NCBI RefSeq assembly: GCF_016907915.1
Contig: NZ_JAFBCW010000027.1
Coordinates: 1 to 40,231, forward strand
DNA length: 40,231 bases
Source: Desulforadius tongensis
GTDB lineage: Bacteria; Bacillota; Desulfotomaculia; Desulfotomaculales; Desulfohalotomaculaceae
Direction: 5' to 3'
Part shown: piece by piece, positions 2,984 to 8,123 of the stretch
How positions within the stretch are numbered: the stretch's first letter is position 1
How the letters are laid out: each line of letters starts with the position of its first letter
Made by a program: the position numbers and the translations under genes
Notes under the pieces: model-generated
The model's database searches: none
Told to the model about the DNA's origin: nothing
What the model saw: only the letters and a program-made list of their open reading frames with translations

Positions 2984-3033
2984 CAATATATGAGTATAAT
3001 TGTAGTAACTAATTTTTTTAAGGAGGAATGGAT

Positions 3034-3390
3034 TTGAATCTAAGCATCCAGCAAATGGTGGATGAAGCTTGTCGTGCTGCTGAAGAAAAAAAAGCTCATG
3101 ATATTGTGGTGCTGGACATTAGTGGCGTTTCTGTTATCTGTGATTATTTCATCATTTGCAGTGCCAACTCAACTACTCAGGTGAAAGCCATTGCGGAAAA
3201 TATCCAGGATAAAATGGCCAGGCAGGGGGTTGCCCTCAAACACCGGGAAGGTTTAAGAGAAGGAAACTGGGTGCTGCTGGATTACGGTGATGTGGTGGTG
3301 CACATATTCCGGGAGAAAGAGCGCCATTTTTACAATTTGGAACGCCTGTGGGGCGATGCCGAAGTGGTGCATTCTTCTGCGGGAAATTAA
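3034..3390 (+). CDS. rsfS: Ribosomal silencing factor RsfS (Iojap family)
   Basis: RsfS binds ribosomal protein L14 on the 50S subunit and blocks subunit joining when nutrients are short. The product of about 118 residues matches family length and shows the Iojap/DUF143 stretch VVLDISGVSVICDYFIICS, then HREGLREGNWVLLDYGDVVVHIF with the conserved GxWVLxDYGDxVVHIF pattern. AAGGAGG at 3020-3026 lies only one base before an in-frame ATG at 3028 but seven bases before TTG at 3034, so TTG is the likely start. It ends the nadD-yqeK-rsfS group, and a strong promoter for the next transcript begins 15 bases after its stop. Confidence 0.93.
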   Translation: MNLSIQQMVDEACRAAEEKKAHDIVVLDISGVSVICDYFIICSANSTTQVKAIAENIQDKMARQGVALKHREGLREGNWVLLDYGDVVVHIFREKERHFYNLERLWGDAEVVHSSAGN

Positions 3391-3404: not shown

Positions 3405-3433
3405 TTGACAATCACATATCTTTGCCTTATAAT
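3405..3433 (+). promoter_or_regulatory. Consensus sigma-A promoter of the T-box operon
   Basis: TTGACA at 3405-3410 and TATAAT at 3428-3433 are both perfect consensus hexamers with a 17-base spacer. Transcription should start near 3440, about 30 bases before the T-box Stem I. Confidence 0.9.
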
Positions 3434-3616
3434 AAAATGCGTCACATCGATGAACGCAAAATCGATGAAGAGGAGTAGTAAATGGTGCAGCTCTGCAGAG
3501 AGCCGTCGGTTGGTGCGAGACGGTGAGCGTAACATTGAACTCGCCTCTGAGATGCATGGGGGATATGTACTCCATGACGGTTGGTGGCCGTTATACACGT
3601 CAAGCGGGTAATTCGT

Positions 3617-3692
3617 GGGGCTGTAGCTCAGCTGGGAGAGCGCTTGAATGGCATTCAAGAGGCCAGGGGTTCGAGCCCCCTCAGCTCCACCA
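3617..3692 (+). tRNA. tRNA-Ala (anticodon GGC), CCA encoded
   Basis: This is a complete 76-nt cloverleaf. The acceptor stem GGGGCTG (3617-3623) pairs with CAGCTCC (3682-3688) and includes the G3-U70 pair that marks alanine tRNAs. The D arm is GCTC/GAGC, and the anticodon stem CTTGA/TCAAG holds the loop ATGGCAT with anticodon GGC. The variable loop has five bases, the T arm AGGGG/CCCCT holds TTCGAGC, and A73 and CCA are encoded. It lies between the T-box Stem I/II region and the antiterminator, so it is transcribed from the leader promoter and upstream of the T-box terminator. RNase P processing at 3616/3617 would cut the leader in two. Confidence 0.97.
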
Positions 3693-3728
3693 TTTTACTA
3701 CCAACTAGGGTGGTACCGCGGGAGAAAA

Positions 3729-3760
3729 GCTCTCGTCCCTATAAGGGGCGAGGGCTTTTG
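3729..3760 (+). terminator. T-box regulated intrinsic terminator
   Basis: GCTCTCGTCCC (3729-3739) pairs over 11 bp with GGGGCGAGGGC (3745-3755) around TATAA, followed by TTTT. It lies directly after the T-box sequence and shares bases with the antiterminator, as in classical T-boxes. Confidence 0.92.
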
Positions 3761-3875: not shown

Positions 3876-5546
3876 ATGCAGAAACTTGACAAAGTCACGG
3901 TGGGACAGCTGCTGGAGCAGGTTGCCCGGATGTATCCCGATAACGAAGCGCTGGTGTACAACGACCGGGATTTGCGTTATTCTTATCGAGAGTTTAACCG
4001 GTTATGCCGGGTAGTGGCCAGGGGATTAATGGCCATGGGGATTAAAAAAGGTGACCATATCGCGGTGTGGGCTACCAACGTTCCCGAATGGGTGCTGCTG
4101 CAGTTTGCCGTCGGGAAAATGGGGGCGGTTTTAGTAACTGTAAACACCAACTATAAAACCTTTGAGCTGAAATACTTACTGGAGCAGTCGGACAGTACCA
4201 GCTTATTCATGGCTGCCGGGACAAAAACATCCAGTTATATCGATATGATTTATGAGCTGTGCCCGGAATTAAAGGAGTCTAAACCTGGCCAACTAAATAG
4301 TGATAATTTGCCCTTATTAAAAAATGTGGTTCTTTTAGGTGCTGAAAATTACCCGGGCATGTTTAATTGGAGTGATCTGCTGGCCATGGCGGAACAGGTA
4401 TCGGAAGAGGAGTTAGACGCCCGCATGGCTTCCTTGGATCCTGACGATGTTATCAACATGCAGTATACCTCTGGAACCACCGGATTTCCCAAGGGGGTTA
4501 TGCTGAGCCACACAAACGTGGTAGGTAATGCCCGGAGTATTGCCCAGTGTTTAAAATTTACTTACCGGGACAGGTTGTGCATACCGGTGCCCTTTTTCCA
4601 CTGTTTTGGCTGCGTGCTGGGTACTTTAACCTGTGTGGTGAGCGGTGCCACCATGGTGCCGGTGGAGAGATTTAATCCCCAGGTGGTTTTAGAGGTCATT
4701 GAAAAGGAGCGCTGTACCGCGGTGCACGGGGTACCCACCATGTTTATTATGGAACTGGAGGAACTGGATAAAAGCAATTATGATCTTTCCAGTTTGCGTA
4801 CCGGAATAATGGCCGGTGCTCCCTGCCCCATTGAAGTGATGAATGCGGTTATAAAGCGCATGAATATGAAGGAAATTGTGATAACCTACGGTCAGACCGA
4901 AGCATCACCGGGTATAACCATGACCCGTACTGACGATCCCGTTGAGATACGGGTTAATACTGTGGGCCGGGCGCTGCCCAACGTGGAAATGAAAGTTATT
5001 GACCCGGCCACCGGCCGGGAAGTGCCGCCCGGTGTCCAGGGGGAAGTTTGTGCCCGGGGATACAATGTAATGAAGGGCTATTATAAAGATCCGGCGGCCA
5101 CTGCCCAGGCCATTGATAAAGATGGATGGCTGCACACCGGTGATTTGGGCGTGGCTGACAGCAGCGGTTATTTAAAAATAACCGGCAGGCTGAAAGACAT
5201 GATTATCCGCGGGGGAGAAAATATCTACCCCCGGGAAATTGAAGAGTTTTTATATACCCATCCCAAGGTTAAAGAAGTGCAGGTGATAGGTGTACCCAGT
5301 GTCAAATACGGGGAAGAAGTACTGGCCTTTATCAGGCTCAAAGAGGGTGTCACCTGCAGTAAAGAGGAAATTCAGGAATACTGTGTGGATAAAATTGCCC
5401 GCTATAAAATACCCCGGTATGTACTGTTTGTAGAAAACTACCCCACCACCGCCAGCGGTAAGGTGCAGAAGTTTAAACTGCGTGAGCAGGCCATGGAAAT
5501 GCTGGGGTTAAAAAACAGCGCTGATTTTGATGGGGCGGGGGTATAA
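3876..5546 (+). CDS. AMP-forming acyl-CoA synthetase (fatty-acid/medium-chain type)
   Basis: This 556-residue enzyme belongs to the ANL adenylate-forming superfamily: it activates a carboxylic acid with ATP and transfers it to CoA. The phosphate-binding loop is YTSGTTGFPKGV (about 197-208), followed by YGQTEA (about 338), GWLHTGDLG (about 417), the hinge GRLKDMIIRGGENIYP and the C-terminal catalytic lysine in TTASGKVQKFK (about 528). It resembles FadD/YngI-type ligases; the acid substrate cannot be read from sequence. ATG at 3876 follows GAAGGGGGAT. It lies between a leucine T-box and leuS, with no terminator before leuS, so it is probably controlled with leuS. A link to branched-chain acids is possible but only inferred. 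Confidence 0.92.
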   Translation: MQKLDKVTVGQLLEQVARMYPDNEALVYNDRDLRYSYREFNRLCRVVARGLMAMGIKKGDHIAVWATNVPEWVLLQFAVGKMGAVLVTVNTNYKTFELKYLLEQSDSTSLFMAAGTKTSSYIDMIYELCPELKESKPGQLNSDNLPLLKNVVLLGAENYPGMFNWSDLLAMAEQVSEEELDARMASLDPDDVINMQYTSGTTGFPKGVMLSHTNVVGNARSIAQCLKFTYRDRLCIPVPFFHCFGCVLGTLTCVVSGATMVPVERFNPQVVLEVIEKERCTAVHGVPTMFIMELEELDKSNYDLSSLRTGIMAGAPCPIEVMNAVIKRMNMKEIVITYGQTEASPGITMTRTDDPVEIRVNTVGRALPNVEMKVIDPATGREVPPGVQGEVCARGYNVMKGYYKDPAATAQAIDKDGWLHTGDLGVADSSGYLKITGRLKDMIIRGGENIYPREIEEFLYTHPKVKEVQVIGVPSVKYGEEVLAFIRLKEGVTCSKEEIQEYCVDKIARYKIPRYVLFVENYPTTASGKVQKFKLREQAMEMLGLKNSADFDGAGV

Positions 5547-5614: not shown

Positions 5615-5642
5615 CCACGCAACTTTATAGGAGGATGTGACA

Positions 5643-8123
5643 GTGGAAGAGCGCTATCATTTTAAAAATATTGAGCCCAAGTGGCAGCAAAAATGGGAAG
5701 AAGAGAATATTTACTGCACACCGGATTCTTCAGACCGGCCCAAATACTATTGTTTGGAAATGTTTCCTTATCCTTCGGGTAAGCTGCATATGGGTCACGT
5801 TCGCAACTATTCCATTGGTGACGTGGTAGCCCGTTTTAAAACCATGCAGGGCTATGATGTGCTGCACCCCATGGGTTGGGATGCCTTCGGTCTGCCGGCG
5901 GAAAATGCCGCCATAAAACATGGTATACACCCGGCAGATTGGACCTGGGATAACATTGAAAATATGAAGAGCCAGCTCAAACAGCTGGGTTTAAGCTATG
6001 ACTGGCGGCGGGAAGTGGCCACATGCCATCCCGACTACTACCGCTGGACCCAGTGGATATTTTTAAAATTATATGAACGGGGTAAATGCTATAAGAAGAC
6101 TGCTTCTGTTAACTGGTGCCCATCCTGTGCCACGGTGCTGGCCAACGAGCAGGTGGTAGACGGTGCCTGCGAGCGCTGTGATACCAAAGTAGAACAGCGG
6201 CAGCTGGAGCAGTGGTTTTTCCGCATTACCGATTATGCCCAGCGATTGCTGGACGACCTGGAACTTCTCTCCGGCTGGCCGGAAAAAGTGCGCGTTATGC
6301 AGGAAAATTGGATCGGTCGCAGTGAAGGTGCGGAAGTTAAATTTAAAGTGACCGGTACGGACGAGGAGTTGGAAGTATTCACCACCCGTCCCGACACCAT
6401 ATTCGGTGTTACTTATATGGTTTTAGCACCGGAGCACCCGCTGGTGGAAACACTGACCGCCGGAACGGAATATGAAAAAGATGTGGCCGATTTCGTGAAA
6501 AAGGTGCGCAATATGAGCGAGCTGGCCCGTACCACTGCTGAAAAAGAAGGGGTATTTACCGGGGCGCACTGCATTAACCCCTTAAGCGGTGAGCGGATAC
6601 CGATTTTGGTGGGCAACTACGTGCTGTTAGAATACGGTACCGGTGCGGTTATGGGTGTACCGGCCCATGACCAGAGGGACTTTGAGTTTGCCACCAAATA
6701 TAAACTGCCCATAAGGCCGGTAATCCAGCCGGAGGGAAGGGTCCTGCAGGCAGAGGAATTGAAAGAGGCCTACACCGGTGAAGGGGTGTTGATTAATTCC
6801 GGTGAATTCAACGGCATGTCCAATAAAGAAGCCATTAAGGCCATTACCAGGAAATTAGAGGGAAATAACCAGGGCCGTGCGAAAGTCAACTTCCGGCTGC
6901 GTGACTGGCTAATATCCAGGCAGCGCTACTGGGGTACCCCCATTCCCATCATTTACTGTAAAAAATGCGGGGCAGTACCGGTGCCTGAAGATCAACTGCC
7001 GGTGGTTCTGCCCACCGATGTGGATTTTGATCCGTCGGGCAAATCGCCTTTGGTGGACAACCCGGATTTTGTCAACACCACCTGTCCCAAGTGCGGTGGT
7101 GAAGCAAAACGGGAAACGGACACCATGGATACCTTTATAGATTCCAGCTGGTATTTTCTGCGCTACACCAGTCCCCGGGAAACCAAAGGACCCTGGGATA
7201 AAGAGGCAGCAGACCGCTGGATGACTGTGGACCAGTACATTGGTGGTGTTGAGCATGCTATTCTGCACCTGCTGTATTCCCGATTCTTTACCAAGTTCTT
7301 CCATGACCTGGGCCTGATTAACAACCGGGAACCGTTTAAAAACTTACTTACCCAGGGTATGGTATTAAAAGACGGGGCCAAAATGTCTAAATCCAAGGGC
7401 AATGTGGTCAGCCCGGAAGAAATTATAGACAAATACGGTGCAGATACCGCCCGCCTGTTCATTCTGTTCGCGGCCCCGCCGGAGCGCGATCTGGAGTGGA
7501 GCGACCGGGCTGTGGAAGGGTGCAACAGGTTCTTAAACCGGGTGTGGCGGCTGTATTATTCACTGCTGGATGAAATTAAAGACGCTCCCCCGGTGCAGAA
7601 TGCCGCTAAGCTGGTGGGGGTACACCGGGAACTGCGCCGTATTACTCACCAGACCATTAAAAAGGTAAGTGAAGATATAGAGAAACGGTTTAATTTTAAC
7701 ACCGCCATCAGCGCCATTATGGAACTGGTGAACGCTGTCTACACTTATCGGGATAAAGTTCCCCAGGCTGAACGCAACAGCTCTGTACTGAGGGAAGCAT
7801 TAGAAAGCGCGGTGCTGTTACTGGCTCCCTTTGCTCCCCATATAACCGAAGAACTGTGGCAGGCACTGGGATACAGGGAAAGCGTTCACCGCCAAGCATG
7901 GCCTAATTATGATGAAGCGGCACTGGTGGAAAATGAAGTTACCATTGTGGTACAGATTAACGGGAAGGTCCGGGATAGGGTGCTGTTACCGGCAGATACC
8001 GGTGTAGAGGATATGAAAAAATACGTTATGGAACAGCCCAAGGTACGGCAGCTTATTTCCGGTAAAGAAGTGATTAAAGTAATAGCGGTACCGGGGAAAT
8101 TGGTAAATGTGGTTGTAAAATAA
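5643..8123 (+). CDS. leuS: Leucyl-tRNA synthetase
   Basis: LeuS charges tRNA-Leu and is a class I synthetase. The product of about 826 residues has the HIGH motif as HMGH (about 49-52), a zinc-type CPSC...CERC pair, the CP1 editing-domain motif [12 protein letters not shown], a second CPKC element, KMSKS (about 580) and the C-terminal anticodon and tRNA-binding region. AGGAGG at 5629-5634 lies eight bases before GTG at 5643 and only two before an in-frame GTG at 5637, so 5643 is preferred. It is the expected target of the leucine T-box at 3.5 kb, with the acyl-CoA synthetase interposed. A strong terminator follows. Confidence 0.97.

Follow-up and report, generated by a model that had tools for sequence, protein, structure and literature searches.

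A tRNA-Ala(GGC) gene within the Stem III loop of a leucine T-box leader upstream of leuS

The leuS leader and its neighbouring genes

The window, that is, the whole 40,231-nt stretch analysed (contig NZ_JAFBCW010000027.1 of Desulforadius tongensis), contains a leader region between two protein-coding genes, one rsfS-like and one acyl-CoA synthetase-like (acs); acs is followed by leuS. The features of the locus, all on the plus strand, are as follows.

3028..3390, +, rsfS-like gene, upstream (ORF; a homologue lies upstream in most related loci)
3405..3433, +, consensus promoter TTGACA-17-TATAAT (12/12 consensus matches)
3456..3743, +, T-box leader (RF00230) enclosing the tRNA (cmscan, 127.6 bits, model positions 1-219 complete)
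3540..3542, +, specifier codon CUC (Leu) in Stem I (cmscan alignment GAA-CUC-GCC)
3602..3606, +, purine motif RRRxG (AAGCG) 5' of Stem III (from the sequence; motif as given in PMC7583486)
3607..3611, +, Stem III 5' arm GGUAA (cmscan stem; covariation over 114 leaders)
3617..3692, +, tRNA-Ala(GGC), CCA encoded at 3690-3692 (ARAGORN; RF00005, 64.5 bits)
3698..3702, +, Stem III 3' arm CUACC (cmscan)
3703-3704, +, conserved AA directly after the Stem III 3' arm (from the sequence; AA in 106/114 leaders)
3707..3720, +, T-box sequence AGGGUGGUACCGCG of the antiterminator, with the UGGU bulge at 3711-3714 (from the sequence and cmscan)
3725..3759, +, intrinsic terminator of 16 pairs (terminator search; fold)
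3876..5546, +, acyl-CoA synthetase-like gene (acs) between leader and leuS (ORF; a homologue lies in the same place in many relatives)
5637..8123, +, leuS, leucyl-tRNA synthetase (ORF; aligns to leuS of relatives)

The leader was matched by the T-box model with an E-value of 3.7e-28, its 127.6 bits standing against a curated cut-off of 93. In the cmscan alignment the tRNA interrupts a single stem, lying between its halves just 5' of the antiterminator, so that the model recognised both sides of the tRNA as one leader; the failure to do so that the initial annotation had named as refuting was therefore not seen. According to the initial annotation, a leucine T-box was present intact, and a complete tRNA-Ala(GGC) lay between its sensor stem and the antiterminator, at 3617-3692; both points were borne out by ARAGORN and cmscan, which place the insert in the Stem III loop. 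The extent given there for the leader, 3467-3760, was slightly off: the start of the leader is near 3440-3456, and 3759 is the last position of the terminator stem.

ARAGORN called one tRNA gene in the whole window, tRNA-Ala(GGC) at 3617-3692 on the plus strand, and cmscan found the RF00005 match at 3617-3689 with 64.5 bits. The gene has the cloverleaf, the Ala anticodon GGC and an encoded CCA. It occupies the apical loop of Stem III, the order being AAGCG-GGUAA-tRNA-CUACC-AA. The surrounding sequence has everything expected of a T-box: the full-length RF00230 match, a matching specifier, the RRRxG-Stem III-AA arrangement, and a UGGU bulge with a competing terminator. The CUC specifier agrees with the downstream leuS and with the genome-encoded tRNA-Leu(GAG). 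A search for promoters from Stem I up to the tRNA found none, and that at 3405-3433 is the only strong one before the tRNA. An RNase P site is expected at 3616/3617.

Stem III of the window is weak, with 4 pairs, a mismatch and further pairs. Minimum-free-energy (MFE) folds of the leader favoured other pairings around Stem I and did not reproduce this stem; the leader structure was therefore taken from the covariance model. At the contig edge, positions 10-93 of the window match the end of a group II intron (RF00029, 45.6 bits).

Distribution of the layout

An isotype-blind pattern, consisting of a tRNA T-arm followed within 50 nt or less by the T-box sequence, was used in the survey, with the same pattern read backwards as control. 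The survey covered one phylum. The pattern matched 16/60 relatives, 34/113 genomes of the class (reversed control, 4) and 73/398 genomes across the phylum (reversed control, 8). On these counts the layout is not a chance one. On inspection of the sequences about 69 of the 73 phylum matches were real and the rest chance. All verified loci were called as tRNA-Ala(GGC) by ARAGORN, and those whose downstream sequence was covered all continued into leuS or acs(-leuS). Although the pattern would accept any tRNA, tRNA-Ala(GGC) was the only isotype it found inside T-boxes.

When variants of the T-box sequence were included, the set grew to 114 distinct leaders of this layout from at least 31 families and about 73 genera of the phylum, all with tRNA-Ala(GGC) and, wherever the downstream sequence was covered, with leuS or acs after it. 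Carriers include Peptococcaceae bacterium BRH_c4b (L062), a Thermosyntropha MAG (L124) and Firmicutes bacterium ADurb.Bin153 (L030). A recent insertion specific to the window was rejected because the layout is phylum-wide. Forty of the embedded leaders were tested with cmscan; in 32 the T-box scored above the curated cut-off and spanned the tRNA, and 8 fell below the gathering cut-off, where some switches may be degraded.

A pattern scan of the genome collection returned at least six cases of a tRNA near a T-box, the matches listed being mostly chance in G+C-rich genomes; two candidates, L041 and L054, were set aside as having no T-box context. None of the other T-boxes of the window genome has a tRNA close before the T-box sequence. 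One of them (L005, C19:21973-22313, minus strand) is a 341-nt match with an extra segment, about 100 nt longer than most others there. Group II introns lie near the tRNA-bearing leuS leader in L314 and L205, and L314 also has a c-di-GMP riboswitch. In L204 (genome G257), a scaffolded assembly, a run of N falls within the embedded tRNA. In several families an acs-like gene stands between the leucine T-box and leuS, an arrangement that would make it leucine-controlled, with no evident purpose.

Conservation of the T-box and tRNA parts

UGGU was kept in 113 of the 114 leaders and the AA after Stem III in 106. Among the 89 leaders readable by a simple pattern, the specifier was CUC in 86, CUU in 2 and CUG in 1. 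The arms of Stem III covary across the set: the mean score of an arm with its own partner was 13.7 as against 9.1 with swapped partners, whose maximum in 200 draws was 9.9. On the tRNA side, CCA was encoded in 108/114 leaders; the six embedded tRNA-Ala genes that do not encode it are those of L235, L236, L237, L253, L259 and L260. Position -1 was U, the base preferred by bacterial RNase P (PMC9433436), in 107/114 leaders, and position -2 was G in 62 and A in 50. As judged from these sequence patterns, the T-box half and the tRNA half are both under constraint.

Copy number of tRNA-Ala(GGC)

Pattern search and tRNA survey located exactly one tRNA-Ala(GGC) in the window genome, the embedded one, in a 61-contig draft from which a further copy may have been missed. 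Fifteen of the 16 relatives found among the 60 tested likewise had a single pattern match, the embedded gene; the tRNA of the remaining one, G023, was missed by the pattern. In the phylum sample there was one match per embedded genome, except for two in G247 and in G435 and none by pattern in G485. A second copy near tRNA-Pro was found in G012, of the same class. As a rule, then, no tRNA-Ala(GGC) gene other than the embedded one was found in a genome with this layout. Of 177 Ala codons in seven genes of the window, 73 are GCC, more than any other. The partner of the CUC specifier, tRNA-Leu(GAG), is encoded once in the window genome. Neither tRNA-Ile nor tRNA-Ala(UGC) was found in the surveyed part of the 61-contig assembly, which suggests that an rRNA operon is missing from it.

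Empty sites, separated parts and ancestry

Several leaders, L363 and L373 among them, keep the leuS T-box and have no tRNA. Both of these lie ahead of leuS in members of the same order as the window, and both have a short Stem III loop before the T-box sequence: AAGAG-GGUAAG-AGAUUG-CUUACC-AA in L363 and AAGUG-GGUA-UAUUU-UACC-AA in L373. They confirm what the order of elements in the window shows, namely that the tRNA caps Stem III. The two empty sites also support the initial annotation in its view that the tRNA was inserted into an otherwise normal leader.

The opposite loss was seen as well. In 20 relatives tRNA-Ala(GGC) is still found ahead of leuS (or its operon) and the standard layout is gone. 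In 18 of the 20 a near-consensus promoter stands 10-40 nt upstream of the tRNA, and in 17 a terminator follows it directly. In L271, L275, L277, L284, L290, L294 and others the T-box is lost and the series promoter-tRNA-Ala-terminator-leuS is retained. The terminators of several relatives without a T-box still resemble the terminator arm of a T-box (CTCTCATCC), so that expression of leuS there may require read-through. A decayed T-box surrounds the tRNA in L311. As lineages with only the tRNA and lineages with only the T-box both exist, neither part needs the other.

Two loci may record other stages. In L353 (genome G297) the leuS T-box is directly preceded by tRNA-Ala(GGC) and does not enclose it; this may be a forerunner of the embedded layout or a rearranged form of it. 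L366 (753-1050, genome G052) is a 298-nt leuS T-box leader with a long Stem III loop that begins, with GGGGCUACGGC, exactly at the tRNA start position; a real tRNA-Ala(GGC) is present elsewhere in this genome. Free local alignment of the loop to the tRNA scored 17, which is not significant against shuffled sequences (mean 13.9, maximum 25). Judged by its position alone, the loop is probably a fossil of an embedded tRNA.

On a quick LeuS tree the embedded state was strongly clustered, with 18 changes over 82 rows against a mean of 40 for shuffled states. The embedded layout is not one clade on this tree, and at least 5 of the 18 changes are forced by starred branches; repeated loss or horizontal transfer must therefore be assumed. 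Thirteen T-box-less relatives form one starred group of the window's order among the embedded ones. A single old insertion in an ancestor of the phylum, followed by repeated losses in both directions, is the most economical account though not a proven one, since tRNA, loop and neighbour gene do not differ from case to case. Horizontal transfer of the layout may also have played a part.

A proposed dual function of the leader RNA

From the arrangement of the sequence we consider it likely that one leader RNA does two jobs, serving at any level of leucine as the precursor of tRNA-Ala and, for leuS, as a leucine-tRNA switch. Transcription would start at the consensus promoter before Stem I, and the RNA would be made in the order Stem I/II, Stem III 5' arm, whole tRNA-Ala(GGC), Stem III 3' arm and antiterminator/terminator. 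By analogy with the T-box family, uncharged tRNA-Leu(GAG) would read CUC and pair through its 3' end with UGGU, favouring read-through into acs-leuS, while with charged tRNA-Leu the terminator would remain. This decision is predicted to affect only acs-leuS. As the tRNA (3617-3692) is upstream of the terminator (3725-3759), it should be transcribed in every round regardless of leucine and made whether or not leuS is read, as the initial annotation had already argued. RNase P, with its preferred U at -1, together with 3' processing, would free the tRNA from the short terminated RNA and the long mRNA alike.

If the tRNA is made in either state, the terminator at 3725..3759 would be shared, being both the OFF state of the switch and the 3' end of the tRNA unit; the only tRNA-Ala(GGC) gene of the cell would thereby have the T-box terminator as its own. 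Terminated T-box leaders are thought of as waste. Here the attenuated leader, discarded elsewhere, would become the precursor of a tRNA whose gene is normally the sole one found for a major Ala anticodon. The tRNA would take the place of the Stem III loop, where the sensor appears to tolerate an insert. The recently recognised Stem III discriminator would then tolerate a folded 76-nt domain over long evolutionary times.

How far the insert matters to the switch is a separate matter. The tRNA may simply have landed in a tolerant loop and persisted there only as the sole copy, with no benefit beyond the shared promoter and terminator. We rate this as a serious possibility, if somewhat below even chances. 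The losses are separable in both directions, as it would predict, and Stem III loops are described in a 2020 review as generally variable and carrying insertions (PMC7583486). However, both parts are intact across at least 31 families, which suggests that the shared transcript is at least serviceable, and the tRNA can be relocated, as it has been in many relatives. A closer tie, in which the insert is part of the switch and tRNA-Ala maturation and leucine sensing influence each other, seems unlikely to us; the initial annotation had proposed such a tie through RNase P cutting. It could take several forms: Stem III and an extended acceptor stem might hold back RNase P until the terminator decision; the extra 76 nt might give tRNA-Leu longer to bind; or the RNase P cut upstream of the antiterminator might shape the fate of the leuS mRNA. 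G(-2)U(-1) of the window can pair with A73-C74, giving a 9-pair acceptor stem in the fold, and leader pairing with the RCCA of the tRNA 3' end slows bacterial RNase P (PMC9433436). T-box leaders of B. subtilis thrS and thrZ are, moreover, cleaved upstream of the terminator by RNases J/Y (PMC3997798). Yet position -2 is G in just 62 of the 114 leaders and A in 50, G(-2)U(-1) is common in ordinary tRNAs (18/87 in E. coli; PMC9433436), and the lineages that keep one part only weaken the case for coupling. Equally unlikely is the further proposal that riboswitch and tRNA precursor evolved as one device coupling tRNA-Ala(GGC) supply to leuS control. Its events would run from tRNA-Leu binding through closure of Stem III over the nascent tRNA-Ala and the terminator decision to RNase P cleavage, and if it holds, the processing of one tRNA and the sensing of another constrain each other.

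The remaining readings dispute one of the two jobs. That the embedded tRNA is not a working tRNA, and instead caps the structure or serves the T-box as a ligand in cis by pairing its ACCA with UGGU, is very improbable: UGGU is indeed complementary to the 3' ACCA of tRNA-Ala, and six embedded tRNAs are without an encoded CCA, but the tRNA scores normally (64.5 bits, RF00005), is usually the genome's only tRNA-Ala(GGC) gene, has an anticodon (GGC) at odds with the CUC specifier, and has been kept without change in relatives that lack the T-box. It is hardly credible that the locus is an artefact of assembly or annotation, or that its T-box has decayed and lost the ability to switch. No T-box part is absent from the window leader, against which stand the 8/40 leaders below the gathering cut-off and the clear loss of the T-box in some relatives. 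An assembly error, the other weakness the initial annotation had named for itself, is ruled out by the identical junctions in more than 100 independently assembled genomes. With its empty sites, intact inserts and T-box-less derivatives, this layout is a natural system that lends itself to direct tests of whether tRNA processing or the riboswitch decision comes first.

Relation to known systems

In the metY-nusA and tufB operons of E. coli, tRNA genes are co-transcribed with protein genes. As in the present leader, the tRNA stands in the 5' portion of an mRNA and is freed by RNase P (a prediction in our case). There, in contrast, the tRNA lies outside any regulatory RNA structure, and no switch decides on the downstream gene. 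With the leuS class of transcriptional T-boxes (RF00230) the window leader shares the Stem I CUC specifier, RRRxG-Stem III-AA, the UGGU antiterminator, the intrinsic terminator and the leuS operon downstream; it differs in having a complete non-ligand tRNA gene where the apical loop of Stem III would be.

T-box and tRNA gene are known separately, and their composite appears to be new. The initial annotation knew of no T-box with an internal tRNA gene, and in agreement with this no description of a riboswitch, T-box or otherwise, that encloses a tRNA gene was found in the open-access full-text literature searched. The 2020 review records insertions in every T-box domain, with structure and function unknown (PMC7583486). 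The tRNA-Sec gene of Alphaproteobacteria that is nested in selB (PMC8124441) resembles the present case as a tRNA gene nested in another translation-machinery sequence, but its host is a coding sequence and here it is a riboswitch. In the B. subtilis thrS/thrZ leaders a T-box leader is also cut between sensor and terminator, as predicted here, and the cleavage upstream of the terminator has a regulatory effect (PMC3997798, citing a 1996 thrS study). There, however, RNases J/Y act and no tRNA is produced (PMC3997798), whereas tRNA-processing enzymes would be expected to cut the leader described here.
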